Assembly (NCBI GenBank): GCA_009691255.1
Contig: SHUT01000003.1
Location: 1 to 64,000 of the forward strand
Length of the DNA stretch: 64,000 bases
Direction: 5' to 3'
Origin: Ilumatobacteraceae bacterium
Lineage (GTDB): Bacteria > Actinomycetota > Acidimicrobiia > Acidimicrobiales > Ilumatobacteraceae
The notes beneath the pieces are model-generated. The model ran no database searches, was not told the origin of the DNA, and saw only the letters and a program-made list of their open reading frames with translations. Both the position numbers and the translations under genes were made by a program. Every line of letters starts with the position of its first letter. Position 1 is the stretch's first letter. Below, one piece after another: positions 12,713-59,383 of this stretch.

Positions 12713-12793
12713 AGAGCCCCCTTGCGTTGTGGGAGTTCGGGTGGGCGAACATATGGGATAGTTTATGTCAAGTCCAGCAGTGAAGGAGTATGG

Positions 12794-25071: not shown

Positions 25072-25107
25072 GCAGACAAGAGGGTGTAATATTGTTATAG
25101 ATTGTAT

Positions 25108-28100
25108 ATGCGTGGTCCAATAGAATCTTTCAAGACAGAACGGAGCAGGGTATTGCGCTGGGTTGTAGTAGGTGCCACTATCGCAAGTGTTGGCGTGGTC
25201 TTTTTGCCCAGGGCTGCTCAGGCGGTAGCCACTTCCTCTGACTACATAGTGGTGTTGCGCGATGGCGTAAATCTGTCAAAAAAAGTCGCTTCTGAAGAAA
25301 AACGTGGCAACGACGTAGGCGATACATTCTCGGCTGGTTCTGATGGTTTTGTTGCGTCACTTGATAGTTCTGATGTCGCGCGATTACGCAAAGACCATGA
25401 TGTGCGAATCATCGAACGTGATGCCCCTGTGTCGCTTGTTGCTGACAACGAAACCGACACAATCAGTTCGCTATCCACCCCAACTGGTGCGGTTGGCGAG
25501 GTCATTCCTGGCCGCTATATCGTGCGATACAAGTCCAACGATGCGTTGCTTGCTTCGGTAAATTCTTTAGAAATCTCGGTATTAGCTAACTACACCAATG
25601 TGTTTCCTGGATACGTCGCCAATCTTAGTGATGCGACAGCCAATCAGTTGCGCACAACGCAAGGCGTTGTGCTGGTCGAACAAGACAAAGTGGTTTCAAT
25701 TAATACAGATCAACCGATCGGGGTGGGCGACTCATGGGGTCTTGACAGAGTCGATCAGCGGTTGCTTCCGATGAACATGATGTATTCGTATTCTACAAAC
25801 GGTACGGGTGTCTCGGCGTATATCATCGACACTGGTATTCGTGCCACGCACGTGGAGCTCGCAGGCAGAGTGGGGAGTGGTTTCACGGCGGTGAACGACG
25901 GAAATGGTTCCTCTGATTGTCATGGTCACGGAACCCATGTCTCTGGAACTGTTGGCGGCACAAGATATGGTATTGCAAAAAATGTCAATTTCTTCCCAGT
26001 GCGCGTATTAGATTGCAACGGCTCTGGAAGTCTCTCCGGTGTTATTGCCGGAATTGATTGGGTGATTGCGAATCACGCCGCTGGCGTGCCAGCAGTCGCC
26101 AATATGAGTCTTGGTGGTGGCTACAGCTCAAGCCTCAATGCTGCTGTGGCACGTGGCGTCGCAGATGGAGTGGTGTTTGCGGTTGCCGCCGGCAATGAGT
26201 CATCACTTGCATGCAACGTGTCTCCTGCATCGGAGCCGACAGCCATCACTGTCGGAGCAACCGATACCAGTGATGCGCGTGCGTATTTCTCGAACTACGG
26301 AGCATGTGTCGACATCTTTGCTCCTGGGGTTGGCATAAAGTCGTCAACTGCGTCGAGCGATACATCTACTGCGTCATGGTCAGGCACCTCAATGGCCACA
26401 CCACATGTCGCAGGTGTTGCTGCGCAGTATTTACAGTCTCACCCCACTGATACGCCAGCTCAAGTGGCTCGGGCATTAGATGCCGCCACTACTTCAAATG
26501 TAATAGTCAACCCCGGTACGGGTTCGCCAAACAAGTTGTTGTACAACGTTTCGTTTTATCCAGCTCCGATAACCGTGCCAAGTGCTCCAAACTCACTTAC
26601 GTCAGTTGCTGGATCCTCGCTAGTCACTCTGAGTTGGGGAGCGCCTTTAACTGACGGAGGAGTCGCTATTTCTAACTATGTAGTGGAGTATTCATCTGCA
26701 TCAGGCTCGTGGACTACTTTTGCTCACCCTGCGTCAACGGCATTGTCGATTATTGTTACTGGTCTCACAAACGCAACGGCGTACTCATTTCGAGTATCAG
26801 CAACTAACAGCGTCGGCACCAGTGTTTCTTCGGCGACAACAACCGTTACCCCCCGTGATCCAACTCTTCCGTCTGCACCAACTGCAGTATCAGCTATTGC
26901 GGGAAACGCCTCTGCTGTCGTGCGTTGGACAGCCCCGAGCAGTGCAACTATTTCTTCGATCACCATTAACTCCACTACTCCTTATGTAGATATTCCTTTG
27001 ACTGCCGGAGCACTTGATGTCATTGGTCATTCTGACCACTCATGTTCTGCTCATGTTGCGAGCGCAATTGATCCGTGGCTCGACGTCATTCAAGTGTCAA
27101 CTGGTCGAATTATTTTCTCTAATGACGATGGTGCTCACAACTATTCAACAGATTGCTATGCATCTCGCATCACCACCACTATCTCTGGATCAGGGTATGT
27201 CTTGAGAGTCAGGGGCTGCTGTGGTCATCCTTATGGAGTCGTGCGACTCGAACAACGCTCTACGGTTGTAGATGTCACTGGCTACACGGTCAAATCGTCT
27301 CCTGCTGGCCTGACATGCACCACTGCAACTTTGTCTTGCACAGTTGCTGGTCTGACAAATGGCACGCCATATACATTCACAGTCATTGCCACTAATGCAG
27401 TAGGCAACAGTGTTTCATCGTCACCGTCTGGTGCAGTCACTCCAACTAATCCAGCTCTGCCGTCTGCGCCAACTGCAGTATCAGCTACTGCCGGAAACGC
27501 ATCTGCTGTCGTGCGTTGGACTGCACCAGTGATCTCGTCTCCGCGTTGGCAACGAGAAGCTGGCTCCATCCAAGCCACGGAAGTTGATCTAGATGCTCCG
27601 TACGACTCTGGCTATTCAATCCGCCAATGGGCTGACTGTGCATGCGCTCGATTTAGATGGGTGAGCCTAACGCGTATTTCTGATGTCTATGACACGGATA
27701 TTGTGCTGGTCGATGCAAAGTGGCCCGTCACTGGCTACACGGTCAAATCGTCTCCTGCTGGCCTGACATGCACCACTGCAACTTTGTCTTGCACAGTTGC
27801 TGGTCTGACAAACGGCACGCCATATACATTCACAGTCATTGCCACTAATGCAGTAGGCAACAGTGTTTCATCGTCACCGTCTGGTGCAGTCACTCCAACA
27901 GAACCAGTACCGTCTGCACCAACTGCAGTATCAGCTACTGCCGGAAACGCATCTGCTGTCGTGCGTTGGACAGCCCCAGTAAGCTCGTTTGTCACTGGCT
28001 ACACGGTCAAATCGTCTCCTGCTGGCCTGACATGCACCACTGCAATTTTGTCTTGCACAGTTGCTGGTCTGACAAACGGCACGTCGTATACATTCACAGT

Positions 28101-29445
28101 CATTGCCACTAATGCAGTAGGCAACAGTGTTTCATCGTCACCGTCTGGTGCAGTAATCCCGCTTACTTATGTTCCTGGTGATGTTGTGGCTGCATCGTGG
28201 GGTCTTGATCGCATCGACCAACGCGCACTGCCACTGAACGGACGCATCACTCGTGCCGGATCCGGAGCCGGAGTCACGGCGTACGTCATTGACACTGGTA
28301 TTTATGCAGGACATAGTGAATTTGGTGCTCGTGTGAGGTCAGGTTTTAATGCAATCAACGATGGCAACGGGACCCAGGACTGCCAAGGACACGGAACGCA
28401 TGTCAGCGGAACGGTCGGTGGTACGACTTATGGTGTCGCACCACTCGTCACGCTTGTGCCGGTGCGTGTTTTGGACTGCAACGGAAGCGGTTCGGTGTCA
28501 GGGGTCATCGCAGGAATTGATTTTATGATTCAGGATCATGCCACAGGGGTTCCAGCAGTTGCAAACATGAGCCTTGGTGTAGCCGGTGTGAGCGCTGCTC
28601 TAAATGATGCCGTCGCACGCGCCATCGCTGATGGCATCACGGTCGTGGTTGCAGCCGGAAATAGTTATGCCGATGCATGCGGATCCTCGCCGGCATCTGC
28701 TCCGCTTGCTGTCACCGTAGGAGCAACGACATCATCTGACTCAATGTCGTATTTCTCAAACTACGGATCATGTGTTGACATCTTTGCTCCGGGAAGTTCG
28801 ATCACTTCTGCTGCAATATCTTCGAGTTCTGCAACAACAACAATGTCAGGAACTTCTATGGCGAGCCCACATGTGGCTGGCGTGGCTGCTGTGATCTTGG
28901 GTACGCAAAACTTACTCACGCCAGCAGAGGTAGCGACAGCAATGAAGGCAGCCGCAACAACAGGGGTCATCACCTCCATCGGGGCGGACTCACCTAATTT
29001 GCTGCTCTTCTCGCGCGTTGCCTCAACAACTGTTGCTCCCGTGACACCACCAACTGTTGCTCCCGTTACACCACCAACAACTGTTGCTCCCGTGACACCA
29101 CCAACAACTGTTGCTCCCGTGACACCACCAACAACTGTTGCTCCCGTGACACCACCAACAACTGTTGCTCCCGTGACACCACCAACAGCAGTTGCTGTTG
29201 ATTCTGCTCTGCAGATAACCACAGTCAGTAATGTTGGTCGCAACGTCACGATCACGGTCAACTCGCCAGCCGGAGCGCTAGTCACCATCATTCGTGATGG
29301 AAAGGTTGTGGCGAAGGGCAAGTCCTCGGTCTTTACTCTCAAAAATGTTGCTCGCGGAAACCACAGTTTCCAAGCAAAAGTTAAAGTTGGCAAGCGAACC
29401 TTAAAGTCGCAAGTGGTCAATTTTTCTGTCTCCACAAAGCGTTGA
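25108..29445 (+). CDS. Secreted multidomain protease: signal peptide, two I9-like propeptides, S8 subtilisin domain, FN3 repeats with inserts, second S8 domain, Pro/Thr linker, C-terminal Ig-like domain
   Basis: Two triads: AYIIDTGI/HGHGTHVSGTVGG/SGTSMATPHVAG and AYVIDTGI/QGHGTHVSGTVGG/SGTSMASPHVAG; hydrophobic N-terminus ending AQA; VAPVTPPTT repeats. Confidence 0.95.
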   Translation: MRGPIESFKTERSRVLRWVVVGATIASVGVVFLPRAAQAVATSSDYIVVLRDGVNLSKKVASEEKRGNDVGDTFSAGSDGFVASLDSSDVARLRKDHDVRIIERDAPVSLVADNETDTISSLSTPTGAVGEVIPGRYIVRYKSNDALLASVNSLEISVLANYTNVFPGYVANLSDATANQLRTTQGVVLVEQDKVVSINTDQPIGVGDSWGLDRVDQRLLPMNMMYSYSTNGTGVSAYIIDTGIRATHVELAGRVGSGFTAVNDGNGSSDCHGHGTHVSGTVGGTRYGIAKNVNFFPVRVLDCNGSGSLSGVIAGIDWVIANHAAGVPAVANMSLGGGYSSSLNAAVARGVADGVVFAVAAGNESSLACNVSPASEPTAITVGATDTSDARAYFSNYGACVDIFAPGVGIKSSTASSDTSTASWSGTSMATPHVAGVAAQYLQSHPTDTPAQVARALDAATTSNVIVNPGTGSPNKLLYNVSFYPAPITVPSAPNSLTSVAGSSLVTLSWGAPLTDGGVAISNYVVEYSSASGSWTTFAHPASTALSIIVTGLTNATAYSFRVSATNSVGTSVSSATTTVTPRDPTLPSAPTAVSAIAGNASAVVRWTAPSSATISSITINSTTPYVDIPLTAGALDVIGHSDHSCSAHVASAIDPWLDVIQVSTGRIIFSNDDGAHNYSTDCYASRITTTISGSGYVLRVRGCCGHPYGVVRLEQRSTVVDVTGYTVKSSPAGLTCTTATLSCTVAGLTNGTPYTFTVIATNAVGNSVSSSPSGAVTPTNPALPSAPTAVSATAGNASAVVRWTAPVISSPRWQREAGSIQATEVDLDAPYDSGYSIRQWADCACARFRWVSLTRISDVYDTDIVLVDAKWPVTGYTVKSSPAGLTCTTATLSCTVAGLTNGTPYTFTVIATNAVGNSVSSSPSGAVTPTEPVPSAPTAVSATAGNASAVVRWTAPVSSFVTGYTVKSSPAGLTCTTAILSCTVAGLTNGTSYTFTVIATNAVGNSVSSSPSGAVIPLTYVPGDVVAASWGLDRIDQRALPLNGRITRAGSGAGVTAYVIDTGIYAGHSEFGARVRSGFNAINDGNGTQDCQGHGTHVSGTVGGTTYGVAPLVTLVPVRVLDCNGSGSVSGVIAGIDFMIQDHATGVPAVANMSLGVAGVSAALNDAVARAIADGITVVVAAGNSYADACGSSPASAPLAVTVGATTSSDSMSYFSNYGSCVDIFAPGSSITSAAISSSSATTTMSGTSMASPHVAGVAAVILGTQNLLTPAEVATAMKAAATTGVITSIGADSPNLLLFSRVASTTVAPVTPPTVAPVTPPTTVAPVTPPTTVAPVTPPTTVAPVTPPTTVAPVTPPTAVAVDSALQITTVSNVGRNVTITVNSPAGALVTIIRDGKVVAKGKSSVFTLKNVARGNHSFQAKVKVGKRTLKSQVVNFSVSTKR
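26860..28160 (+). repeat. FN3 repeat array (in-frame, near-identical DNA) inside the protease gene
   Basis: GTCACTGGCTACACGGTCAAATCGTCTCCTGCTGGCCTGACATGCACC... recurs at 27274, 27727 and 27991. Confidence 0.95.
29025..29196 (+). repeat. About six tandem 27-bp units encoding (T)TVAPVTPPT linker
   Basis: ACAACTGTTGCTCCCGTGACACCACCA units read directly. Confidence 0.95.
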
Positions 29446-29551
29446 CTAAGTCTTACGAAGTAGGGTTTCTCTGCGGAGGCACTCATGTTTGATTTCATAA
29501 TTCAGGCCGAAATAATAGTTGTCGAACGAGTGTTGGGCGAGTAGTACACGC

Positions 29552-30082
29552 ATGCTTTTACAACGACTCGACGACTATCAGACCTGGTTGCTGACTCATG
29601 GCTCGACTGCTCTTCTTGTCGACCCCACAACACCAGTTTATGGCACACCCAAAGCCGCCAAAGCCGCCCGCAAGATCGGCATGACATCCACGCACGCACA
29701 TAAACCAGGCGACACCTTTGTCATCGAGCCAGTGGTTGGCGGAACACGGGTCTATTTTGACCCTCATTTACCATCGTCGACATTGGCAACCTCAGTTGGT
29801 CATGCAGATGTATTAGTGGCCCCTGTGCGCGGTATGCGTGCCGTCATCATTTCAGCGACCGCTGGACCTAAGCGAGTTGTTGGCAGTGCTCGAGCTGTTG
29901 GCGCATCAGTGATTGTTCCGACAGCACTTGATCCCAAACGAGATATGAATTGGTGGCAACGCACTGCATATCGCGGATGGGGAAGTGTCACTGCCCTACA
30001 GAAATGTGCCAGTTCGAGTGTGCTTGTTTTGCCAGAGAATCAAGTGTTGATAGATCTTGACGACTTGATTACTGCTAACTGA
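29552..30082 (+). CDS. Hypothetical protein; possible degenerate metallo-beta-lactamase-fold (UlaG-like) protein
   Basis: ALLVDPTTPVYGTP...TRVYFDPHLPSSTLATSVGHADVLVAPVRGMRAVIIS; no HxHxDH motif. Confidence 0.5.
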   Translation: MLLQRLDDYQTWLLTHGSTALLVDPTTPVYGTPKAAKAARKIGMTSTHAHKPGDTFVIEPVVGGTRVYFDPHLPSSTLATSVGHADVLVAPVRGMRAVIISATAGPKRVVGSARAVGASVIVPTALDPKRDMNWWQRTAYRGWGSVTALQKCASSSVLVLPENQVLIDLDDLITAN

Positions 30083-31283
30083 GGCGAATCGGCAATTTCT
30101 TAATGCCGTGAACAAAATGTGATCGCATACGCTTGACATCGCCGATCAATTCAATATTTGTTACTTGCTTCGCTAGTTCTTCAAAGATAATTCGCATTTC
30201 TAGCTTTGCCAAGTTTGACCCTAGGCAAAAGTGAGGTCCGCCTCCGCCAAACGTGACATGCGGATTAGGGTTTCGCCGAATATCAAAGGTGAACGGATCA
30301 GCAAATACTTCTTCGTCGCGGTTGGCTGAGACATAGAACATTACAACGCAGTCGCCTTCTTTGATCTGATGGCCACGCAAGTCCACGTCACACACTGCAG
30401 TGCGGCGAAAAGAGTTGACAGGTGTGGCCCATCGGAGGATTTCTTCCACGGCTGACGGCACAAGTGATAGATCGGCACGCATCTGCTGAAAAGAGTCAGG
30501 GTTCTCTGTTAGTGCCAGTACACCATGACTGATTCCGTTTCGGGTGGTTTCATTACCTGCAACTGACAACAGCAACATAAATAGTTCAAACTCATGTGAG
30601 CCCAAGTGGTCGTCTGCTGTCTCGTCAATGAGTGCAGTGATGATGTCGTTGCGCGGGTCGGTACGCCTAGTGGCAGCAACTCCGTTGAAGTACATGTAAA
30701 GATCTGCAGCGGCGCTTTGGGCGTCTTCTGGACCACTAGACATGTCTGGATCGGTTGATCCGATCATGCGGTTAGACCAGTCGAATACTTTGTGGCGATC
30801 TTCAACAGGGATGCCTACTAACTCGGCAATTGCAATCAGGGGCAGTTCAGCAGATATTTTTTCGACAAATTCGACATCACCTGAGGCGAGCCCAGCCGCT
30901 ACGAGTTCGGCTGCAACTTCTCGAAAATGATCTTCGAGCATGCGCATTGCTTTTGGAGTGAATCCGCGGTTGACCAATGTGCGAAGTCGAGTGTGGTCTG
31001 GTGGATCTGTGTCAATCATTAAGCGAGAATCTTCAAGGTCTGGACGGTTCTCTGACATCAAAGAACCCTTGAGTGCTGATGAGTAGATTTGAAATTGTCG
31101 GCTCACAGACACAAGGTCGGCATGCTTAGTAATAGCCCAGAACTTGTCTGGGAAACCGTCTTCAAGGCCAGGAGCCAAAATGATTGGCGACTCATGACGC
31201 AAACGAGTAAATATTTCATGCGGCGGACCATTGCGGTAGGCCTCGTTGCTAATGATGTCAATATCGACTACTTCGTTGCTCAT
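30075..31283 (-). CDS. Cytochrome P450, CYP125-like (steroid C26/27-hydroxylase candidate)
   Basis: FWAITKHADLVSVSR, DPPDHTRLRTLVNRGFTPKAM, ELPLIAIAELVGIPVEDRHKVFDWSN, AGNETTRN, heme loop FGGGGPHFCLGSNLAKLE with a one-residue-longer loop as recalled for CYP125; located next to ltp2. Confidence 0.85.
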   Translation of the reverse strand: MSNEVVDIDIISNEAYRNGPPHEIFTRLRHESPIILAPGLEDGFPDKFWAITKHADLVSVSRQFQIYSSALKGSLMSENRPDLEDSRLMIDTDPPDHTRLRTLVNRGFTPKAMRMLEDHFREVAAELVAAGLASGDVEFVEKISAELPLIAIAELVGIPVEDRHKVFDWSNRMIGSTDPDMSSGPEDAQSAAADLYMYFNGVAATRRTDPRNDIITALIDETADDHLGSHEFELFMLLLSVAGNETTRNGISHGVLALTENPDSFQQMRADLSLVPSAVEEILRWATPVNSFRRTAVCDVDLRGHQIKEGDCVVMFYVSANRDEEVFADPFTFDIRRNPNPHVTFGGGGPHFCLGSNLAKLEMRIIFEELAKQVTNIELIGDVKRMRSHFVHGIKKLPIRLS

Positions 31284-32458
31284 CTGTCCGCTCCTAATAT
31301 TAGACCACTCGTTGGTACACCTGTTCCCGCTGTTACGAGGACATGTTCGACGTCGGGTACCTGATTAACACTAGTGCCGCGTACTTGACGCACACCCTCG
31401 GCGATGCCGTTCATGCCATGTATATAGGCCTCACCGAGTTGACCGCCATGAGGGTTGATAGGCAAAGACCCACCCATTTCTATGCGCCCGTTTTTGATGA
31501 AGTCTTTGGCATCTCCACGAGCGCAAAATCCGAACTCTTCTAGTTGCATTAATACGTATGGCGTGAAATGGTCATACAGCACAGCAGTCTGAATATCTGC
31601 GGGAGTTAATCCACTCGAGCTCCACAGTTCGTCTGCAACTAGTTTCATTTCTGGAAGTTGAGCAATGTCATCGCGGTAAAAACTCGTCATTGTCCACTGA
31701 TCTTTGCCGGCACCCTGCGCCACGGCCTTGACGATGGCTGGTGTTTGTGGCATGTCTCGGGCCCGCTCGACCGTGGTGACGATTAAGGCTTGAGCACCAT
31801 CGCTTTCTTGACAACAATCCAATAGATGCAAGGGCTCAACAATCCAGCGACTGTTTTGATGATCTTCAAGCGTGATGGGCTGTTCATAAAACCAAGCGGC
31901 TGGATTAGTTGCAGCATGTTTACGATCAGCAACTGCGACACGACCCAGATCTTGGCTCGTTGCTCCGTATAGATGCATATAGCGCTGAGCAACCATTGCC
32001 ACCCAACTCGCAGGTGTTAGTAAACCTTGAGACGATGTATACGAAAACTGCGCGCGTTCGGCTGTTGCGGCATTTGGCAGATCTTGAACACCTGAACCAA
32101 AGCGACGACCACTGCGTTCATTGAAAGCGCGGTAACACACCACGTAGTCTGCAACTCCAGTCGCAACTGCCATGGCAGCTAGTTCGATTGTTCCGCAAGC
32201 AGCGCCACCGCCGTAATGGACGCGACTGAAATGTCGAAGATCGCCAATGCCAAGGTGACGAGCGATCTCGATTTCTGGATTGTTGTCGGCGCTGTATGTC
32301 ACCATGCCATCGATGTCTGAGGGTTTGAGTCCAGCATCTTGAATAGCCGCCAGAACTGCTTCGCAGGCCAGTTTCATCTCGCTGCGTCCAGAGTCTTTTG
32401 AGAACTCTGTTGCCCCGATACCAACGATGGCTGTTTTATTGCCGAGTTGATTACTCAT
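31280..32458 (-). CDS. ltp2: Ltp2-like thiolase-fold aldolase (steroid side-chain retro-aldolase)
   Basis: TAIVGIGATEFSKDSGRSE, HYGGGAACGTIELAAMAVATGVADYVVCYRAFNERSG, EDHQNSRWIVEPLHLLDCCQESDGA, HGGQLGEAYIHGMNGIAEGVRQ. Confidence 0.92.
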   Translation of the reverse strand: MSNQLGNKTAIVGIGATEFSKDSGRSEMKLACEAVLAAIQDAGLKPSDIDGMVTYSADNNPEIEIARHLGIGDLRHFSRVHYGGGAACGTIELAAMAVATGVADYVVCYRAFNERSGRRFGSGVQDLPNAATAERAQFSYTSSQGLLTPASWVAMVAQRYMHLYGATSQDLGRVAVADRKHAATNPAAWFYEQPITLEDHQNSRWIVEPLHLLDCCQESDGAQALIVTTVERARDMPQTPAIVKAVAQGAGKDQWTMTSFYRDDIAQLPEMKLVADELWSSSGLTPADIQTAVLYDHFTPYVLMQLEEFGFCARGDAKDFIKNGRIEMGGSLPINPHGGQLGEAYIHGMNGIAEGVRQVRGTSVNQVPDVEHVLVTAGTGVPTSGLILGADR

Positions 32459-32865
32459 GGCAAAACTACTTCGACGGTTGCCGTGACATGGTCACCCATT
32501 GAGTTGCTTCCAGTAACAAGAACTGTGACGGTCTTGGCGTCGACCGCAGTTATCTTGCCCCGCATCTTCATGGTCTCGCCAGGATAGTTCGGCACCCCAA
32601 GACGAACTTTTACCGACCTAATAAATGCGTTGGGTCCGGCCCAGTCTGTGATGTAACGCCCGACAAAACCGTTTGTGCTGAGAATATTCATGATGATGTC
32701 TTGCGAACCACGCTCGACAGCAATGCTTGGGTCATGATGTACTTCTTGGTAGTCGCGAGAGGCGATTGCGGTGGCGGTAATCAAAGTGCGGGTCAGTGGA
32801 ATATCGAGTGCAGGTAATTCTTGCCCAACCTGAACATCGGCGATGGTGAGAGATGGCGTATTCAT
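32455..32865 (-). CDS. chsH1: MaoC-like hydratase subunit (ChsH1-like)
   Basis: ITATAIASRDYQEVHHDPSIAVERGSQDIIMNILSTNGFVGRYITDW; about 137 aa; ATGA overlap with upstream ACAD. Confidence 0.85.
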   Translation of the reverse strand: MNTPSLTIADVQVGQELPALDIPLTRTLITATAIASRDYQEVHHDPSIAVERGSQDIIMNILSTNGFVGRYITDWAGPNAFIRSVKVRLGVPNYPGETMKMRGKITAVDAKTVTVLVTGSNSMGDHVTATVEVVLP

Positions 32866-33974
32866 CGGGATGCAATCAACTTTCCGAGTCTGGCAAGGTG
32901 TTGGCTTGCACCACCAAGTTGCGTACTGATTTGGATTCCCCACAAAAAGAAGCGATGAACGGGATAACTAATGTCAGCGCCGACACCTCCGTGTAGGTGT
33001 TGACCTGCCAACACAACCGAATGTCCACCCTCTGTGGCCCAATACATTGCCACCAAGACATCTTGGCGCGCATCAAAGCCTTCTGCCAAGCGCCATGCCG
33101 CATTAAGCATGGTGACACGCATTGCCTCTGTGGTGATGTAGGCGTCTGCCGCACGAACTGCAACCGCCTGTTGGGCGCTAAGTGGCTTGCCAAACTGATG
33201 GCGTGTCTTGACGTGTTCTGCTGTGATGGCGATTGATCCTTGGGCGACTCCAAGTTGTATTGCGCACAGGGCCACAAGCGAATGTTCGTGCATCCAACGC
33301 AACGCCTCGCGTCCGTCGTTTGTTAGGCCCGCAATGATGTGGCTTGCCGGCACGACGACATCAATGTCCATGTTGGCCTGGGGTTGGTGATCACTACCGT
33401 CAACTGCAGTGAGTATGACTCCACGTGCATCAGTCTCGACCAGCGCAAGAACGACTGATCCATCTACCCGCTTTGCAGATACCACGACAAAGTGTGCATT
33501 TTGAGCATATGGAACCGCAGGTTTTGATCCGACCAAGCGAACTCCACCATCTACATCTGTCGCCTCGACTGAAGGGTTCATTGAGTCATTGGCGCCGAAG
33601 TTGGCAAGTGCACAAGAAAGCACTGTGGTCCCGTTGCAAACACCTGGCAAAACCAAAGTCTGTAATGCAGGGCTGCCGTACTGAGCCACAGTCATTGCTG
33701 CAATTGACGACGACCACAGCGGAACCTGGGCGATGTGTTTTCCTTGCTGTTCGAGCACAAGAGATAGCTCCACCATATGCATCGCAAGACCACCGTGCTC
33801 TTCTGCCACACACAGACCAAGGAGTCCGGCTTTTGCAAGTTCGTTCCAGAGCGTGGCGTCAAAGCCATCACCTGTTTGAAGTTCGGTGATGCGCTCGATC
33901 GTGGAGAGTCCACTAAATATCTGTTGTGCTAAATCACTAAGCACGTGTTGTTCGTCGGAGAGATCAAAATTCAT
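32862..33974 (-). CDS. Acyl-CoA dehydrogenase, partner subunit (FadE28/ChsE1-like)
   Basis: MNFDLSDEQHVLSDLAQQIF, HSLVALCAIQLGVAQGSIAITAEHVKTRHQFGKPLSAQQAV. Confidence 0.88.
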   Translation of the reverse strand: MNFDLSDEQHVLSDLAQQIFSGLSTIERITELQTGDGFDATLWNELAKAGLLGLCVAEEHGGLAMHMVELSLVLEQQGKHIAQVPLWSSSIAAMTVAQYGSPALQTLVLPGVCNGTTVLSCALANFGANDSMNPSVEATDVDGGVRLVGSKPAVPYAQNAHFVVVSAKRVDGSVVLALVETDARGVILTAVDGSDHQPQANMDIDVVVPASHIIAGLTNDGREALRWMHEHSLVALCAIQLGVAQGSIAITAEHVKTRHQFGKPLSAQQAVAVRAADAYITTEAMRVTMLNAAWRLAEGFDARQDVLVAMYWATEGGHSVVLAGQHLHGGVGADISYPVHRFFLWGIQISTQLGGASQHLARLGKLIASR

Positions 33975-33983
33975 GGTGTTCCT

Positions 33984-34943
33984 TTACTTGTGAACTCGGG
34001 CGAAGGGGAGTGTCAGTTCGTCATCGGTGGCCAGCAGTACGATGTCAACTTTTTTACCGATAGCGATGTCAGCAATATCTGTATCAATAGGGTTCATCAC
34101 CATGCGAACACCTTCGTCTAGGTCGACGAGCAAGACCGGAAGCGGATACTCCAGTCCCGGAACTTGCGGATAGTGCGTCACAACAAAACTATGGATAGTG
34201 CCAGTGCCGACGGCCTCAACAGGGTGCCAGTCCATCGACACACATGACGGACAGACAGGCCCTGGAGGAAACCGTAGAGCCTGACAGTTTGTACAACGTT
34301 GGACAAAGAGTTTTCCGTTTTGTAGACCGTCAAACCACCAACTGTTGTCGTGTGTTGTTGCAGGTCGCGGACGCACCACATGGGGGGAGGGGTTTTTGCG
34401 CGTCGCTGGTCTAAAACGAATAATCCGAAACAACATTGAACCAACACGTTGGTTGTTTTGATCAAAATAATCCTGTCGAGTTGTGACGAAGTGCCCTGTT
34501 CCGAGCGCAGTCGTTTTTTCCGTGCTAATTGCATCAATGGTGGTGGTCATTGAGAGTCTGTCGCCGGGATGCAGGTATCGGTCGTAGGTCTGCTCACAAT
34601 TAGTGGCAACCACGCTGGTGAATTGCTTAGAAAAGAGTAGTTGGTTCATGTCTTCGTATGGATTGGTGCCGGAAAGTACTCGTGGTTTGAGACCCGCCAT
34701 TACCCATGCCTGCAGCATCGTTGGTGGAGCGACGATCTGGCCATGTACCGATGCCTCGGCCGCTGTCGTATCAAGATAGATGGGGTTGTTGTCGCCGATT
34801 GCTTCGCACCAATGACGAATCATTGGGATGTTGACTTCATCTGGGGACAACTGTGCTGGCCCAATTTCTTTTCCGACGAACGCTTGTAATTTTTGCCAGA
34901 AAGCCTGTTTGTCTTTTTCTGTTTCTTGGTCGACTGAAGTCAT
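33984..34943 (-). CDS. chsH2: Bifunctional MaoC-like + DUF35 (OB-fold/Zn ribbon) protein (ChsH2-like)
   Basis: N-terminal IRHWCEAIGDNNPIYLD hot-dog; C-terminal NGKLFVQRCTNCQALRFPPGPVCPSCVSMDW Zn ribbon. Confidence 0.9.
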   Translation of the reverse strand: MTSVDQETEKDKQAFWQKLQAFVGKEIGPAQLSPDEVNIPMIRHWCEAIGDNNPIYLDTTAAEASVHGQIVAPPTMLQAWVMAGLKPRVLSGTNPYEDMNQLLFSKQFTSVVATNCEQTYDRYLHPGDRLSMTTTIDAISTEKTTALGTGHFVTTRQDYFDQNNQRVGSMLFRIIRFRPATRKNPSPHVVRPRPATTHDNSWWFDGLQNGKLFVQRCTNCQALRFPPGPVCPSCVSMDWHPVEAVGTGTIHSFVVTHYPQVPGLEYPLPVLLVDLDEGVRMVMNPIDTDIADIAIGKKVDIVLLATDDELTLPFARVHK

Positions 34944-34957
34944 TGTTTAGCCCTTGT

Positions 34958-36181
34958 TTAACCTTTCACGAGTTCGCGCCACGGCAGATTGCGATCTACC
35001 GATGGCTCTCGCGGTAATCCAAGACCGCGCTCACCGATGATATTTTGTTGAATTTCATTTGTTCCGCCACCAAGACGTATTGCGAATTGACTCAACAGAC
35101 GGTGTTGCCATTCGCCATTATCAATGACATTGTCTCCCCATAACATTGCGTCAGCCCCTAGAACTTCCATCGCGGTATCCATTGTTTTTTCCCAATGACG
35201 AGCGTATGCCAATTTCATAACAAACATTTCAGGGCCGGGTATTAGTCCGAGTGATGATGCTGTGCGCAGGCGGTAGCCCAAGTACGACAGTGTTTGAGCG
35301 CGAGTATATGCGGCGGCGAGCTTTTGGCGCACAACAGGGTCTTGAGTGCGCCCCAGCTTTTGGGCAGTTTCAATTAGCGCTTCAACGGTCCAAGAACTTC
35401 CGCCACCGCCGATGAATGCTCGCTCGCTTGTCAAGGTCGTGTTGGCAACAGCCCATCCGTTGTTAACTTGGCCCAATACGTTGGCAGCCGGAATTCGAAC
35501 ATCGGACAAAAACACCTCATTGAAATGAGCCACGCCAGTGATTTGTACAAGTGGTCGCACTTCGATTCCGGCTGATTTCATGTCAACAATAAAATAAGTA
35601 ATGCCTTTGTGTTTTGGTGACTCTGGCTCGGTGCGAGTGAGCAAGATTCCGTAGTCAGAAAATTGACCAAAAGATGTCCAGACCTTTTGACCATTTACAA
35701 TCCAGGTGTCGCCATCGAGCACGGCGCGTGTGCCGATGTTTGCTAAGTCGCTGCCAGCGTTTGGTTCGCTGAACAATTGGCACCACACATGGTCACCGCG
35801 CAGCATCGGCGCTAAAAACTCCGCATGCTGTTGTGGTGTGCCGTGGGCCATCAACGTGGGGCCCACCATGCCCAGACTGACGGCAAATGAACCGGTCGCT
35901 ACATCGAATTTAGATTGCTCTTCCGCAAAAATTGAGGCTTGCAAACTGGTGCCGCCTCGTCCGCCAAATTGTTTAGGCCAAGAAATACCAGCCCAGCCGT
36001 TGTCGTACAAAACGTGCTGCCATTTCTTGCAGGCCACGACATGTCCACCAAGGTCATCATGCCAATTGGCAACATCGTCAGAGCGCAGGGATGCATGTTG
36101 ACTGAGCCATGTGCGAGCCTGATCTCGAAAGATGGCTTCTGCGGCTGAGTCTCCGATCTGCATTGACATGTGTTGTCCCAA
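34958..36181 (-). CDS. Acyl-CoA dehydrogenase (FadE29/ChsE2-like)
   Basis: GISWPKQFGGRGGTSLQ, WCQLFSEPNAGSDLANIGTRA, GGGTNEIQQNIIGERGLGLPRE. Confidence 0.9.
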   Translation of the reverse strand: MGQHMSMQIGDSAAEAIFRDQARTWLSQHASLRSDDVANWHDDLGGHVVACKKWQHVLYDNGWAGISWPKQFGGRGGTSLQASIFAEEQSKFDVATGSFAVSLGMVGPTLMAHGTPQQHAEFLAPMLRGDHVWCQLFSEPNAGSDLANIGTRAVLDGDTWIVNGQKVWTSFGQFSDYGILLTRTEPESPKHKGITYFIVDMKSAGIEVRPLVQITGVAHFNEVFLSDVRIPAANVLGQVNNGWAVANTTLTSERAFIGGGGSSWTVEALIETAQKLGRTQDPVVRQKLAAAYTRAQTLSYLGYRLRTASSLGLIPGPEMFVMKLAYARHWEKTMDTAMEVLGADAMLWGDNVIDNGEWQHRLLSQFAIRLGGGTNEIQQNIIGERGLGLPREPSVDRNLPWRELVKG

Positions 36182-36221: not shown

Positions 36222-36244
36222 GTTTCTGACAGTCTGTCAGAAAC
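36222..36244. promoter_or_regulatory. Operator site A: perfect 23-bp palindrome GTTTCTGACAGTCTGTCAGAAAC
   Basis: Read directly; lies in the divergent intergenic region between ACAD (36181, -) and LLM (36291, +). Confidence 0.9.
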
Positions 36245-36290
36245 AAGCCGTACAACGGAAATGGAGCGAACCCATGCTAGGAATAGCCGT

Positions 36291-37196
36291 ATGAAGTTTT
36301 GGTGCGCAAGTGCGTTTATGGATACCCGTCAACTAGTCAAGGTGGCCACCATCCTTGATCAGTCGGGTTATCACGGCCTGATGGTGTCTGATCACCTGGT
36401 CTACCCGCAACATTTGGTGAGCAAGTACCCATACTCGCCCCACGAAGATGGGCGGCCAATGTGGGAGCCAAGTGCCTCGTGGCCAGACCCCTGGGTGCTG
36501 ATTGGTGCGATGAGTGCTGTGACAACACGACTGCATTTCAATACCAACATCTATGTGGCTCCGCATCGTCCACTTGTGCAGTTGGCCAAAGAAGTATCGA
36601 CGGCAGCAGTAATTTCATCAGATCGCGTTGCTCTTGGTGTCGGGGCTGGATGGATGAAAGAGGAGTTCGACCTGCAGGGTGTTGATTTTTCGACACGCGG
36701 TAAACGACTCAATGAAATGATTCCGGCTCTCCGTGCGCTCTGGAAAGGCGGATGGGTGGAGTGGCATGGTGATTTCTACGATGTTCCGGCCTGCACGATT
36801 GAACCGCACACTGATGTTGCTATCCCGATCTATGGCGGAGGCCATACCAATGCTGCGCTAAAGCGCGCTGCAAAATATTGCGATGGATGGATTGGCAACG
36901 CGTATCCGTGGGATGAGGCCGCTAACTATGTGGGCAAGCTAAAAAGTTTTTTGCATGAGTTCGGTCGCGACAATGATGACTTTGACATCATCTGTGGTTT
37001 GTACGCACTTCCTGCACCAGACTTGTATCGGCGCGCAGAAGAAGAACTCGGCATCACGGGCACAATGTGCATGCCGTGGGCTCTTGATCAAAATGTGAGC
37101 AAGGGCGAGATGAGCGGTCTTACTCAGAGCGCTGATGTTTATCGACCGTCAATCGAAAAATTTGCTGAAGAGATATTGTCTAAGGCGCAAAACTGA
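36291..37196 (+). CDS. LLM-class (F420-dependent-type) oxidoreductase
   Basis: MKFWCASAFMDTRQLVKVATILDQSGYHGLMVSDHL; RVALGVGAGWMKEEFDLQGVDF. Confidence 0.93.
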   Translation: MKFWCASAFMDTRQLVKVATILDQSGYHGLMVSDHLVYPQHLVSKYPYSPHEDGRPMWEPSASWPDPWVLIGAMSAVTTRLHFNTNIYVAPHRPLVQLAKEVSTAAVISSDRVALGVGAGWMKEEFDLQGVDFSTRGKRLNEMIPALRALWKGGWVEWHGDFYDVPACTIEPHTDVAIPIYGGGHTNAALKRAAKYCDGWIGNAYPWDEAANYVGKLKSFLHEFGRDNDDFDIICGLYALPAPDLYRRAEEELGITGTMCMPWALDQNVSKGEMSGLTQSADVYRPSIEKFAEEILSKAQN

Positions 37197-37203: not shown

Positions 37204-38445
37204 TTAACCCAAGGCACCAGTTGCGCGCAGAGCAGCAATAGCAGCAGCATCAAGACCAAGAATATTTTTTAGGACGTCATCGGTGTGTTCGCCATTTGTT
37301 GGTGCCATTGTCGGCATTGGCAGTTCTTCGCCCAGCACATGCAGTGGCAATAAAAGCTGTTCGCAGCCGAGTTGTTCGGTGCTTCCCCATGTGAATCGGT
37401 TCTTAAACTGTGCGTCGTCCATAACTGTTTGAGGTGTATTGACGGGCGCGATTGTGGTGTTGTGTTCGTCAGCAAACAACAACCATTGCGCCGTTGTTTT
37501 AGTTTTAAAGATTTCGCGCAATTGGGTCTGTAACGCCGTGTTTCCTCTTGCGTGATCGGCGTAGGTGCTGCCTGGAAATGCTTCAAATAGGTCATCACGG
37601 CCGATTCCATGGCAGAAGTTTTTCCAAAAACTTTGTTCGCTTGCCATGAACAACACGTATCCATCTTGAGACGCATAAAACTGGTACCGCACGCCTTCCC
37701 ACATGCCGCCAAGTCCGGGTGCTCTGCGCTCAAAATTATCGCTGGAGTTTCCAGTGACCTCGCTCTGTGGACGCTCGTAGGCTTTGTGGGTCTCGATGCG
37801 ATACCAATCAAAATAGGCGGCCGAGTCGCTCTGGGCGATCTCCATGCATGCTGGTTTACCAGTCGTTCGCGCCCGCACGAGGGCTGCCATGATTGACATT
37901 GCTGCAAACGCAGGACCCGCAGTAATGCCGATATTTGTTTGTGCAGGGATGCGTGCAAAGCCTTCGTCATCAATAACTGGGGCAATCGTTCCGGACCACG
38001 CATCATAAGCAACACCATGACTTGCTAAATCGCGATATGGCCCAGTTGCCCCGTAACCAGAGATCGTGCAGAACACAATTTTGGGCTGAAGTTGTTTGAG
38101 ACGCTCAAAGCCAAGGCCCATTTTGTCTAAGAAACCTGGCCGCATCGCCTCAATGACTACGTCGGCCGAACGCACAAGGTCTTCGAAGATGGCGATTGCT
38201 TCTGGTGTTTTTAGATTGAGTGTCACTGATTTCTTGCCACGATTAATGTGTAAGTGCAATAAAGATGAACCCTCAACGATGGGCCATGTCATTTGCCGTA
38301 CGTAGTCACCAGCAGGGGATTCCACTTTGATGACTTCAGCCCCAAAGTCAACAAGGTGTCCACCTAATGCAGCAGGACCAAGCAAGGAGCACTCAATAAC
38401 ACGAACACCTGCCAAGAATCCGGAGTTAATCGACTCAGAAGTCAT
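37204..38445 (-). CDS. CaiB/BaiF CoA-transferase family
   Basis: GVRVIECSLLGPAALGGHLVDFGAEVIKVESPAGDYVR; NRGKKSVTLNLKTPEA; IVFCTISGYGATGPYRD. Confidence 0.94.
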   Translation of the reverse strand: MTSESINSGFLAGVRVIECSLLGPAALGGHLVDFGAEVIKVESPAGDYVRQMTWPIVEGSSLLHLHINRGKKSVTLNLKTPEAIAIFEDLVRSADVVIEAMRPGFLDKMGLGFERLKQLQPKIVFCTISGYGATGPYRDLASHGVAYDAWSGTIAPVIDDEGFARIPAQTNIGITAGPAFAAMSIMAALVRARTTGKPACMEIAQSDSAAYFDWYRIETHKAYERPQSEVTGNSSDNFERRAPGLGGMWEGVRYQFYASQDGYVLFMASEQSFWKNFCHGIGRDDLFEAFPGSTYADHARGNTALQTQLREIFKTKTTAQWLLFADEHNTTIAPVNTPQTVMDDAQFKNRFTWGSTEQLGCEQLLLPLHVLGEELPMPTMAPTNGEHTDDVLKNILGLDAAAIAALRATGALG

Positions 38446-38449
38446 AACG

Positions 38450-39916
38450 TCACCCAGGCCAAACGATGGATTGCATCTCGGTGTAGGCATGGAGTCCGAA
38501 TTCTCCGCCATCGCGTCCGACGCCGCTCAATTTGAATCCACCAAAAGGTGTCTCTGGATTTCGTTGTGCGGTGTTGACCCCGACATTGCCGCTGCGTAAA
38601 AGACGAGCCACGCGGTATGCGCGAGCAGTGTCTTTGCTAAAGACATAGTCATATAAACCAAAGTCTGTTCCGTTGGCAATCGAGATTGCTTCTTCTTCGT
38701 CATCAAAAGGCAGAACCACAACGACTGGTCCAAAAATTTCTTCTTGCACCGGTGTCATGTCAGGGCGACAGTCTGCCAACAAGGTTGGAGCCACATAGAA
38801 ACCACGTTCCATATGACTCGGACGACGACCATCAACGACAATGGTGGCGCCCTGTTGCGCGCCAGTGGCAATGTATCCGTCGATGCGATCACGCTGTATT
38901 GCTGAAATAACTGGACCAACCATTGTGTCTGCAGCAGTGGGATCTCCGACTTTGAGAGATCGTGCCGCACCAGCAAGTTTTTCTACTAGCTCGTCATATT
39001 TACTGCGGTGCACGATGGCGCGTGTCGGGGCTGTACAAATCTGTCCGCTGTGAAAACCCCAGACGCTAGCGATTCCGCCAACAGCAGTGGCGATGTCGGC
39101 GTCGTCAAAGACAAGCGCAGCACCTTTGCCCCCAAGTTCAAGCAAGAGTCGTTTCATGGTCAGTGAGCCAGCAGCAAAAATTCGTTGGCCAATGGCGGTG
39201 CTGCCAGTGAATGACACCATGTCAACATCGCGAGTCTCTGTTAGAACTGCGGCTGGCTCTGGTTTAGACGAAGTGATGATGTTGACTACGCCTGGTGGGA
39301 AGCCGATTTCGTGCATGATCTCAACAAGTTCGATGACTGCGAGCGGATCTTGTGGTGCAGGCTTGATTACAACAGTGCAACCCATCGCCAACGCCGGTGC
39401 AATTTTTCCGGCAACGTTAACGACTGGAAAGTTATAGGGAGAAATACAGGCGACAACACCAACAGGTTGACGATTAATGACAGCGCCAATCAATCCGCCG
39501 GGGGCGAGAGGTGTTGCCAGCGTTGCTGATGGCGGTAGCGGAATATCAAATGACTTGGCAGCAGCTTTTGCATAACGAGCGAATCGCTCAACAGCGACGG
39601 GTACTTGCATGCGCGAACCAACGGTTGCTGTCGCGCCAGTCTCGGAAATAATTAAGGGCACTAAATCACTGGCACGTTCTTGCAGTCGCACGGACACGGC
39701 GTGCAAAAGGCGAGCACGTTCTTCTGGTGCCGTGGCAGCCCATTTTGGAAACGCCTCGCGAGCAGCACGAGCGGCCTGCAGGGCCTGATCGACAGACGCT
39801 TCGGGGGCGTGTCCGACAATGGTCTCGGTGGCCGGGTTAATAATGGGAGAAGTGCCAAGGGCACCCTTGACCCATTGTCCCCCGATGAGTAACTTGTAGG
39901 TCTTTGGATTGGTCAT
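38450..39916 (-). CDS. Aldehyde dehydrogenase family
   Basis: ISPYNFPVVN, FTGSTAIGQRI, LELGGKGAALVFDDAD, FHSGQICTAPTRAIV. Confidence 0.95.
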   Translation of the reverse strand: MTNPKTYKLLIGGQWVKGALGTSPIINPATETIVGHAPEASVDQALQAARAAREAFPKWAATAPEERARLLHAVSVRLQERASDLVPLIISETGATATVGSRMQVPVAVERFARYAKAAAKSFDIPLPPSATLATPLAPGGLIGAVINRQPVGVVACISPYNFPVVNVAGKIAPALAMGCTVVIKPAPQDPLAVIELVEIMHEIGFPPGVVNIITSSKPEPAAVLTETRDVDMVSFTGSTAIGQRIFAAGSLTMKRLLLELGGKGAALVFDDADIATAVGGIASVWGFHSGQICTAPTRAIVHRSKYDELVEKLAGAARSLKVGDPTAADTMVGPVISAIQRDRIDGYIATGAQQGATIVVDGRRPSHMERGFYVAPTLLADCRPDMTPVQEEIFGPVVVVLPFDDEEEAISIANGTDFGLYDYVFSKDTARAYRVARLLRSGNVGVNTAQRNPETPFGGFKLSGVGRDGGEFGLHAYTEMQSIVWPG

Positions 39917-39932
39917 AGCGCCTCAATGGTAC

Positions 39933-39953
39933 AATCTGACACACCGTCAGATT
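39933..39953. promoter_or_regulatory. Operator site B: AATCTGACacaccGTCAGATT
   Basis: Perfect 8-bp arms, 5-bp spacer, same core geometry as site A; between ALDH start (39916, -) and amidohydrolase start (40037, +). Confidence 0.87.
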
Positions 39954-40036
39954 TCATTGGCTGGAAGATGACGGCTAGTTACAACGGCCCGATGGCCGCC
40001 AAAACGATGAAAAGGACACAACTTGAGGGGCCCAGA

Positions 40037-41758
40037 ATGCTTGACCATCTGATCACAGGAGCAACAATCGTTGATGGCACCGGTGCCTCTGGTCGTCGGG
40101 GTGATATCGGAATCAAAGACGGACGCATTGTCGTAGTGGGAACCACAGATGAACCTGCCCAGAATGTGATTGACGCAACAGGAATGGTTGTTGCACCCGG
40201 ATTTATCGACCCACATACGCACTACGACGCGCAATTGCTTTGGGACCCAATGGCAACACCATCGAGTTTTCATGGCGTCACAACAGTGATTGGTGGCAAC
40301 TGTGGATTCACTCTTGCACCACTCAAGCCAGGTGACGGTGATTACTTGCGCAAGATGATGTCAAAAGTTGAAGGAATGCCGTTGCCTGCACTCGAACACG
40401 GAACAGATTGGTCATGGGAAACTTTTGCAGATTTCTTGCAACGCTTCGAAGGAAACATTGCTGTTAACGCAGGCTTCTTGGTGGGACATTGCGCAATCAG
40501 GCGATACGCAATGGGCCTTGATGCGGTCGGTAGTCCTGCTGACGCTAAACAAATTGTTGGAATGCGCGCGGAGTTGGCAAAAGCAATTGAAGCGGGTGCG
40601 CTCGGATTTTCATTTACGAACTCAACATCACACTCAGACGGAGAAGGTGAGCCAGTCGCAAGCCGATGGGCGACACATGACGAGTTAATCGCGCTCTGCG
40701 AAGAAACCGGAAAATATCCAGGAACAACTCTAGAAGGAATCGTTCCTGGCTGCCTAGACACATTTTCTGATGACGAGATCGACCTACTGGCCAAGATGAG
40801 CGCTATTGCCAACAGACCAATGAACTGGAATGTGCTCACTGTTGATTCACGAGAGCCTGATCGTGTGCCACGCCAACTGCAAGCAGCTGCAAGAGCTAAA
40901 GAACTTGGTGGGCGAGTCGTAGCACTCACGATGCCGATCCAAGTGCCAATGAATATGTCGTTTCTGAATTTTTGTGGTTTGTGGTTGATGCCTCACTGGA
41001 ACGACATAATGGCTGGCACTGTGGCGCAACGCATTAAACGCCTGCAAGACCCCGATACGCGGATCAAATTGTTGGAGTGGAGCCTGTCCAAAGAAGCGGG
41101 TGTATTCCGGCGTCTTGCAGATTGGGCTGACTACATCATTGGCGACACATTTGCTGAAGTAAATGCTGGTCTTTCTGGTCGTAGCGTACGCGATATTGCC
41201 AACGAGCGACAAACATCAGCCTTTGGAACTCTGCTTGACATTGTGATTGCCGATGAGTTGCGCACCGTGTTGTGGCCAACACCTCAAGATAACGATGCAG
41301 AGTCGTGGCGGATGCGTGCCGAACTATGGCTTGATGACCGCGCCATGATCGGTGGATCTGATGCAGGAGCACATCTTGATCGGATGTGTGGTGCTCCGTA
41401 TCCAACCAAGTTTCTCAATGATTGTCTGCATGGTCACAAACTCATCAGCATGGAAATAGCGGTGAAACTTATGACCTCTGATCCTGCGGCATTGTTTGGG
41501 CTCAAAGATCGCGGAGTCTTGCGCGTTGGTGCGCTAGCTGATGTTGTTGTGTTCGATCCCGCAACCGTGGGCAGCCAAGAGCCTCGCTTGGTGACCGACT
41601 TGCCCGGAAACTCGGCACGACTCACCGCTGACTCTGTCGGAATGCATCATGTCTTTGTCAATGGTGTCGCAATTTTGCGTGACGGCATTGCCACAGGCGC
41701 AACACCCGGAACAGTACTTAAATCTGGTCGCGATACCGAGACCGTAACGGCACGATAG
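40037..41758 (+). CDS. Amidohydrolase family protein (N-acyl-D-amino-acid deacylase-like)
   Basis: MLDHLITGATIVDGTGASGRRGDIGIKDGRIVVVG; VVAPGFIDPHTHYDAQLLWDP; GGSDAGAHLD. Confidence 0.92.
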   Translation: MLDHLITGATIVDGTGASGRRGDIGIKDGRIVVVGTTDEPAQNVIDATGMVVAPGFIDPHTHYDAQLLWDPMATPSSFHGVTTVIGGNCGFTLAPLKPGDGDYLRKMMSKVEGMPLPALEHGTDWSWETFADFLQRFEGNIAVNAGFLVGHCAIRRYAMGLDAVGSPADAKQIVGMRAELAKAIEAGALGFSFTNSTSHSDGEGEPVASRWATHDELIALCEETGKYPGTTLEGIVPGCLDTFSDDEIDLLAKMSAIANRPMNWNVLTVDSREPDRVPRQLQAAARAKELGGRVVALTMPIQVPMNMSFLNFCGLWLMPHWNDIMAGTVAQRIKRLQDPDTRIKLLEWSLSKEAGVFRRLADWADYIIGDTFAEVNAGLSGRSVRDIANERQTSAFGTLLDIVIADELRTVLWPTPQDNDAESWRMRAELWLDDRAMIGGSDAGAHLDRMCGAPYPTKFLNDCLHGHKLISMEIAVKLMTSDPAALFGLKDRGVLRVGALADVVVFDPATVGSQEPRLVTDLPGNSARLTADSVGMHHVFVNGVAILRDGIATGATPGTVLKSGRDTETVTAR

Positions 41759-41766
41759 GAACCACT

Positions 41767-42588
41767 ATGACCACCGAGACTGATGATCTGCTGTACACCG
41801 TTATTAATGGAGTTGCGCGCGTCACGCTAAATCGGCCCGACGCCGCAAACTCAATTACCCCAGATCAACGAAACCGATTGATTGAACTTTTCGCTCAAGC
41901 ATCTGCAGATCTCAATGTTCGTGTGGTTGTTCTGAGCGCTACTGGAAAACATTTTTGCACCGGTGCTGATTTGCGAGTGTCTCGCATTGAAGAAACTTCT
42001 CGACCTGACGGTGCTCCTGAACGTACCGTTGGCGATGTTGGTCGCAATATTAAAAATGGTGCGCAGCGGTTGATTATGTCAATCATGGATTGTGAAAAAC
42101 CAGTAATTGCAGCAGTCAATGGCACTGCCGCTGGTATCGGTGCGCACATTGCATTTGCATGTGATCTGATTATTGCTGTCGATACAGCGCGATTCATCGA
42201 AGTCTTTGTGCGACGCGGCATTACCCCTGATGGTGGAGGTGCCTATTTATTGCCGCGCATGATTGGTTTAGCGAAAGCAAAAGAACTGATCTTCTTCGGA
42301 GATGATCTATCTGCACCTGATGCTGAGCGCATTGGTCTTATTAATCGGGCCGTGAGTGCCGATCAGTTCAGTGGCGTCGTCGACGAATGGGCTGGTCGTT
42401 TGGCAATTGCGCCCACCAAAGCGTTGTCGTTGGCAAAAGGCCTTCTGAATAGTTCACTTGATGTAGATCGCACAACGGCGTTTGATCAAGAAGCATGGGC
42501 TCAAGAACTGGCATCACGAACCGAAGATTTCAACGAGGGCGTTCAGGCTTTCATCCAGAGACGTGACCCAACATTTAGAGGTTGGTGA
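41767..42588 (+). CDS. Enoyl-CoA hydratase/isomerase family
   Basis: VTLNRPDAANSITPDQRNRLI, GKHFCTGADLRVSR, AAVNGTAAGIGAHIAFACDLIIA. Confidence 0.93.
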   Translation: MTTETDDLLYTVINGVARVTLNRPDAANSITPDQRNRLIELFAQASADLNVRVVVLSATGKHFCTGADLRVSRIEETSRPDGAPERTVGDVGRNIKNGAQRLIMSIMDCEKPVIAAVNGTAAGIGAHIAFACDLIIAVDTARFIEVFVRRGITPDGGGAYLLPRMIGLAKAKELIFFGDDLSAPDAERIGLINRAVSADQFSGVVDEWAGRLAIAPTKALSLAKGLLNSSLDVDRTTAFDQEAWAQELASRTEDFNEGVQAFIQRRDPTFRGW

Positions 42589-42589
42589 A

Positions 42590-44647: not shown

Positions 44648-44656
44648 GACACTTAT

Positions 44657-46312: not shown

Positions 46313-46314
46313 CT

Positions 46315-46848
46315 ATGAGTTTGCGTAAATCCCATCCGATGGCTTGGCTAATAGCCCATGAAGATATTCGCCAGTTGGCAAGTCGATATGCGGTGCTCCT
46401 TGATGCACGTAACTTTGCCGCAGTCGCTGAACTATTTGTCCCCGATGTGCGAGTAGGGTCCAAACAAGTTGGGCATGATGCCTTGATTGCAAATCTGCGG
46501 CAACAATTTAGTTCTCTTGGTCGCAGTATTTTGCAAGTTACAAATCATGTCATTGATGTCACTGATGCTGACAAAGCCACAGGCATCGTGAGTTGTCGTG
46601 CAGAGATCGAACCTCTTGACTCAGCCGCAGTCTGGGTTGTGCAGCAGATTCAGTATCACGACATCTACGCTCGCGTTGATGACCACTGGTTATTTGTGCG
46701 ACGCAAACACTTGTTGTGGTACGGAGCAGACATATTGCAACACCCCAACGACTTGCCTGATGCGAATTGGCCTGCTAATCATTCCGGCAAGGGTGAACTG
46801 CCTGAGTGGTATGACTCATGGCAAGAATGGATCGCATCGCGTCGTTAG
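46315..46848 (+). CDS. SnoaL-like / NTF2-fold protein
   Basis: IRQLASRYAVLLDARNFAAVAELFVPDVRVG. Confidence 0.87.
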   Translation: MSLRKSHPMAWLIAHEDIRQLASRYAVLLDARNFAAVAELFVPDVRVGSKQVGHDALIANLRQQFSSLGRSILQVTNHVIDVTDADKATGIVSCRAEIEPLDSAAVWVVQQIQYHDIYARVDDHWLFVRRKHLLWYGADILQHPNDLPDANWPANHSGKGELPEWYDSWQEWIASRR

Positions 46849-51767: not shown

Positions 51768-51788
51768 TTTCTGACAGAGTATCAGAAA
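51768..51788. promoter_or_regulatory. Operator site C: TTTCTGACagagtATCAGAAA
   Basis: Same 6-N5-6 core as sites A/B with one arm mismatch; 64 bp upstream of the 51704 start. Confidence 0.78.
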
Positions 51789-55602: not shown

Positions 55603-55612
55603 GCTAGTTGTA

Positions 55613-57147: not shown

Positions 57148-57166
57148 GGTGAGCCTTTCTTTATGC

Positions 57167-57196
57167 GCAGTGTCATGGTTTGCAGTGTCATGGTTT
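57167..57196 (+). repeat. Perfect 15-bp tandem duplication GCAGTGTCATGGTTT x2
   Basis: Read directly in the gap between the 57147 SDR start and the 57210 ACAD stop. Confidence 0.95.
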
Positions 57197-57209
57197 CGTA
57201 GTGGGGTGA

Positions 57210-58169: not shown

Positions 58170-58180
58170 CAGTGTTGTCC

Positions 58181-59368: not shown

Positions 59369-59383
59369 AGCCACCTGCGAGAG

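Follow-up and report, generated by a model that had tools for sequence, protein, structure and literature searches.

The 64,000-nucleotide stretch of an Ilumatobacteraceae bacterium analyzed here (the window; positions 1 to 64,000 of contig SHUT01000003.1, assembly GCA_009691255.1) carries at 30075-36181 a predicted operon for sterol side-chain degradation that resembles the igr locus of Mycobacterium tuberculosis (cyp125-fadE28-fadE29-chsH2-chsH1-ltp2). Its six minus-strand open reading frames (ORFs) lie where the initial annotation of this DNA had put them, are intact without any internal stop, and are closely packed. The 14-bp gap between the first gene and ChsH2, the 9-bp gap between ChsH2 and FadE28, and the four-base ATGA overlaps at each junction along FadE28-ChsH1-Ltp2-P450 support the earlier proposal that all six genes form one transcript, while scans for sigma-70 promoters and terminators performed no better than on shuffled sequence. 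From first to last, the genes encode an acyl-CoA dehydrogenase (ACAD) of 407 aa (34958-36181), ChsH2 (33984-34943), a FadE28/ChsE1-type ACAD subunit of 370 aa (32862-33974), the ChsH1 hydratase subunit of 136 aa (32455-32865), the steroid retro-aldolase Ltp2 of 392 aa (31280-32458), and a CYP125-family cytochrome P450 (30075-31283). The likeliest start of ChsH1 is the ATG at 32865 rather than the upstream GTG of the mechanically called ORF, and the first ACAD probably starts at either of two ATGs located 4 or 6 codons inside its 407-aa ORF.

ChsH1, ChsH2, and Ltp2 occur together in this operon, and their closest homologues are steroid enzymes as the initial annotation had anticipated. The nearest solved structure of Ltp2 is that of Thermomonospora curvata (TcLtp2; 6ok1, E 1e-182), and the protein clears the NCBIfam lipid-transfer-protein model NF005892 with 692 bits (cut-off 469). 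Its catalytic residues Y295 (in the motif YDHF), H297, and Y345 are kept; in TcLtp2, the catalytic Tyr of YDHF is Y294 and the second Tyr is Y344 (PMC12329534). A thiolase-fold aldolase docked on DUF35 is also found in the Shy/Sal bile-acid system of Comamonas testosteroni, but Sal has YDCY and a Gln instead of YDHF and the second Tyr (PMC12329534). Homologues of Ltp2 (62%) are encoded on the Vibrio alfacsensis plasmids NZ_CP032095.1, NZ_CP140104.1, and NZ_AP024168.1, and a search of viral contigs for Ltp2 gave no match. ChsH2 combines a MaoC-like hydratase half, best matched by 4wnb_A, with a DUF35 half best matched by 6ok1_B, and, unlike the copy of Mycobacterium sp. 4858, has a zinc finger (Cys4 motif C-x2-C-x10-C-x2-C). 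ChsH1 carries the motif RDYQEVHHD and matches chain B of 4w78/4wnb. The 370-aa ACAD scores far better against Tcur3481 (6wy8_A; 268 bits) than against ChsE5 (157 bits), and its tree placement in a strongly supported family clade of its own is consistent with igr FadE28.

The P450 at the end of the operon gives PDB scores of 469 bits with CYP125 reconstructions, 332 with CYP125 enzymes, 321 with CYP124, and 201 with CYP142. Our tree places it as sister to the CYP125 clade of Mycobacterium and Rhodococcus (support 90/95) and separate from a row labelled CYP124-like on the basis of its matching coverage and score, which disfavors an identity as CYP124.

The first gene, though it occupies the operon slot of FadE29, belongs to another ACAD clade. 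In a tree of 89 rows, the positional FadE29s of Mycobacterium, Rhodococcus, Actinomadura, and Acidimicrobiia form one group with Tcur3483 and ChsE4/FadE26 (61 rows, support 100/100, branch 1.46). The 407-aa ACAD lies outside this FadE29/ChsE2 plus FadE26/ChsE4 clade (100/100) and within a group of its own (100/99) whose other members each lie upstream of a true FadE29 that is a distinct gene (in L080, L085, L089, L090, and L091). The tree rules out that the first ACAD is FadE29, and no FadE29/ChsE2 is found inside the operon. Instead, the true FadE29 of this genome lies next to FadA5 on another contig (G000:C14:8092-9282) and is 80% identical to the copy of the relative L076. Because the 407-aa ACAD is not FadE29, the locus does not hold the complete six-gene set of M. 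tuberculosis with which it had been equated, whereas the family assignments of ChsH2, FadE28, ChsH1, Ltp2, and CYP125 stand. The ACAD now in the slot of FadE29 probably acts on a different acyl-CoA in this pathway.

The idea of a local rearrangement likewise had to be given up. The order ACAD-ChsH2-ACAD-ChsH1-Ltp2 is found across Acidimicrobiia, in Actinomadura, Actinocorallia, and Streptomyces, and in Rhodococcus globerulus, R. spelaei, and Rhodococcus sp. RD6.2, and this spread among relatives rules out a rearrangement unique to the locus; the order of M. tuberculosis recurs in Mycobacterium, Nonomuraea, Lentzea, Saccharopolyspora, and other Actinomadura. Within the igr order, only the last-placed P450 is peculiar to the host family: A P450 directly after Ltp2 was seen solely there and in close metagenome-assembled genomes (MAGs) from lakes and ponds (L042-L047, L074-L079, L081). 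One public record titled Bifidobacterium breve (L077) has a lake-type igr locus near-identical to those of L074/L076 and is probably a mislabelled MAG. Compared to M. tuberculosis, the CYP125, FadE28, ChsH2, ChsH1, and Ltp2 orthologues would be expected to perform the same chemistry, but the neighborhood of KstD/HsaEFG/KshA is absent. Clusters of the Actinomadura, T. curvata, and Rhodococcus type share the order and provide the nearest solved structures (Tcur3481, Tcur3483), but they have a genuine FadE29 as the first ACAD, and their P450 does not follow Ltp2. The gene content is already known, and the arrangement is a variant with FadE29 moved, the other ACAD in its slot, and the P450 last.

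Sequence comparisons point to the remaining side-chain pathway at other sites of the genome. Contig C14 bears SDRs (short-chain dehydrogenases/reductases) and an AMP ligase besides FadE29 and FadA5, of which the latter is 63% identical to the Mycobacterium copy and meets the "steroid 3-ketoacyl-CoA thiolase" equivalog NF005889 (617 versus a cut-off of 515 bits). On contig C68 are a Liv-type ABC transporter and, broken by the contig end, an ACAD resembling FadE26; the equivalent region of genome G031 has the FadE26-like gene and a small ACAD subunit, probably FadE27, and in G007, all side-chain blocks lie on a single 161-kb contig. The genome therewith contains CYP125, FadE26, probably FadE27, FadA5, FadE28/29, ChsH1/H2, and Ltp2. 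Ltp2 (at least 86% identity) occurs in 7 of the 32 genomes of the genus, and FadA5 orthologues (at least 85%) were found in 6 of these 7 igr-positive genomes versus none of the 25 igr-negative ones (Fisher approximately 8e-6, calculated by hand and ignoring phylogeny); the latter possess no more than a paralogue of 52-56%. G010, the one igr-positive genome in which FadA5 was not found, is 62% complete. FadE29 is present in all 7 igr-bearing congeners, and the three igr-lacking congeners checked for it gave nothing above approximately 45%.

The 79-bp divergent igr promoter contains a perfect palindrome, GTTTCTGACAG-T-CTGTCAGAAAC, i.e., an 11-bp inverted repeat at 36222-36244 that putatively serves as operator for both the igr operon and the divergent gene for an F420-type luciferase-like monooxygenase (LLM) oxidoreductase (36261-37196, plus strand). 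This gene is a neighbor of igr loci across Acidimicrobiia; it adjoins igr in L053, L082, L084, L088, L098, and L109, with 44-56% identity outside the closest group. The 23-bp consensus GTTTCTGACRG-N-CYGTCAGAAAC recurs in promoters of other side-chain genes. Scanning contigs of four genomes, approximately 444 kb in all, for TCTGAC-N5-GTCAGA revealed 24 sites when up to one mismatch was allowed versus 1.4 expected from order-1 Markov simulations, including 14 perfect sites versus 0.1 expected; the scanned contigs were picked for carrying side-chain genes, so that this density is not genome-wide. Nearly all sites lie beside gene starts. In the window, a second operator-like site (39935-39951) separates the minus-strand genes for an aldehyde dehydrogenase (38450-39916) and a CaiB-type CoA transferase (37204-38511), both kept in igr-positive congeners, from a putative regulon operon on the plus strand (39926-46848) encoding an amidohydrolase, whose true start is probably slightly downstream of 39926, an enoyl-CoA hydratase, a flavoenzyme like old yellow enzyme/2,4-dienoyl-CoA reductase, an AMP ligase, and SnoaL. 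The third site (51770-51786) precedes minus-strand genes for amidohydrolase, AMP ligase, amidohydrolase, and class II aldolase. The fourth (59386-59402) lies between TauD (plus strand) and an operon on the minus strand (54898-59395) of large ACAD, small ACAD, SDR, TetR, and SDR, with the SDR ahead of TetR 55% identical to a Mycobacterium Rv3548-like enzyme. Further sites precede FadE29, the SDR-ligase genes of C14, and the Liv transporter, giving this genome approximately eight palindrome promoters (outside the window, G000 C5:68217, C14:1914, C14:7996, and C68:21122).

The TetR-family regulator of the fourth site's operon (PF19352; 55613-56248, minus strand), conserved in G031 and G022 (90%) and G007 (62%), is the candidate operator binder and likely pairs with the 23-bp palindrome. 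The mycobacterial KstR and KstR2 regulons likewise feature TetR-type control of scattered sterol genes via a palindrome. The KstR motif of mycobacteria is TnnAACnnGTTnnA, unlike the operator here, TTCTGACRGNCYGTCAGAA. It matched twice in the window versus 1.0 expected and never at the igr promoter, and this chance level rules it out as the regulon site. The regulon that we propose is a new element.

We tested four markers of ring degradation: KstD, KshA (PF19298), an HsaC-type extradiol dioxygenase, and IpdE2 (C/D rings). A Mycobacterium positive control gave strong matches for KstD, HsaC, and IpdE2. KstD was not found at a specific score in this genome or the tested igr-positive congeners including G022 and G031 (96% and 97% complete), and the only two strong FAD_binding_2 matches turned out to be NadB and SdhA. 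KshA gave only sub-cut-off Rieske matches in these genomes; HsaC-type matches reached at most 66 bits in the congeners versus 382 in Mycobacterium, and those of IpdE2 approximately 160 bits, equal in igr-negative genomes, versus 562, with none specific in this genome for either. More widely, a check of 22 Acidimicrobiia-type MAGs with igr gave no HsaC match in 20, a figure inflated by incomplete MAGs. The isolates L122 (Streptosporangium sandarakinum) and L105 (Nonomuraea turkmeniaca) carry an igr operon with no HsaC-type match at E 1e-40. We found no literature on steroid degradation in Ilumatobacter. The initial annotation had regarded complete absence of ring-degradation genes as refuting a steroid role; the four markers were indeed not found, but this weighs against full 9,10-seco steroid catabolism and not against side-chain function.

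Taken together, we think it probable that these genes form a regulated sterol side-chain module, with igr as the part for its last cycle, that is uncoupled from 9,10-seco ring degradation. CYP125 would oxidize C26, possibly assisted by the linked aldehyde dehydrogenase, and a CoA ligase or CoA transferase would form the thioester. FadE26 and probably FadE27, hydratases, SDRs, and FadA5 would run the first rounds of beta-oxidation before FadE28 and the relocated FadE29 desaturate the three-carbon remnant and ChsH1-ChsH2 hydrate it. Ltp2, docked on the DUF35 domain of ChsH2, would then cleave off propionyl-CoA and leave a 17-ketosteroid, with the TetR protein repressing the side-chain genes at the palindrome. 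Because KstD, KshA, HsaC, and IpdE2 were not found, the nucleus would be spared by the 9,10-seco route, and the yield would be acetyl- and propionyl-CoA. Such side-chain-without-ring metabolism is proposed here as a new element.

Several points weigh against this interpretation. The scores of CYP125 and CYP124 are near each other, making the CYP125 call dependent on the tree; FadE28 is matched with its partner by inference; a screen of four markers would not catch ring enzymes that have diverged strongly or act outside the 9,10-seco route; and the genome is only 84.6% complete (best congeners 91-97%). Full sterol mineralization, with ring genes missed on absent contigs, through divergence, or in another ring-opening route, would fit this incompleteness and the HsaC and/or KstD/KshA matches in some members of the order (G051, G053, G059, and G039), but we regard it as unlikely given the consistently sub-specific scores in this genome and the tested igr-positive congeners, two near-complete ones included, and the positive control for KstD, HsaC, and IpdE2. 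It is a still fainter prospect that the first ACAD stands in functionally for FadE29 and binds FAD as the partner of FadE28: It keeps the G-helix Glu (SER) in addition to the operon slot, but all seven igr-positive genomes retain a true FadE29, and its orthologues coexist with FadE29 in the relatives named above. A non-sterol isoprenoid or a bile-acid-like compound whose branched side chain is bound to a ring, suggested as the substrate by the numerous lipid genes close by (two PhyH, two RPE65, and several P450s) and by an igr order shared with Rhodococcus species, appears very doubtful since CYP125, FadA5, and FadE26-type genes suit an intact C8 sterol side chain and the Ltp2 active site agrees with C3-cleaving TcLtp2, not the C5 bile-acid enzyme Sal.

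Elsewhere in the window, four of the approximately ten P450 genes of this 1.76-Mb genome are located at 974-2242, 12722-14098, 16964-18229, and 30075-31283 (the igr gene), and two genes for RPE65-type carotenoid oxygenases at 3674-5077 and 20767-22230, the latter close to two PhyH dioxygenase genes. A metallo-beta-lactamase-fold ORF at 29519-30082 (187 aa) seems internally deleted because its relatives align over approximately 255 columns. Read off its translation, the 1447-aa product of the gene at 25102-29445 has two halves that resemble subtilisin, fibronectin-like repeats, and a tail of TVAPVTPPT repeats.

The named neighbors from the order and family in public databases are MAGs of Acidimicrobiales/Ilumatobacteraceae; lakes and ponds are the source of several, and we infer an aquatic life of the host species. 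Surveys of environmental steroid degraders rely on the ring-cleavage markers KshA and HsaC (PMC5790920) and would overlook igr-bearing bacteria of this type, while the operator offers a handle for reading the whole regulon out of sequence. Judging from its genes, this small aquatic actinobacterium probably clips the side chain off sterols, with the ring core left to others. More tentatively, small-genome aquatic Acidimicrobiia may be specialist side-chain removers whose regulated module is gained or lost as a unit and converts algal or animal sterols to 17-ketosteroids, leaving the nucleus to other microbes. If so, this would amount to a division of labor in environmental steroid breakdown and, where the nucleus is left, to a biological source of hormonally active 17-ketosteroids in lakes.

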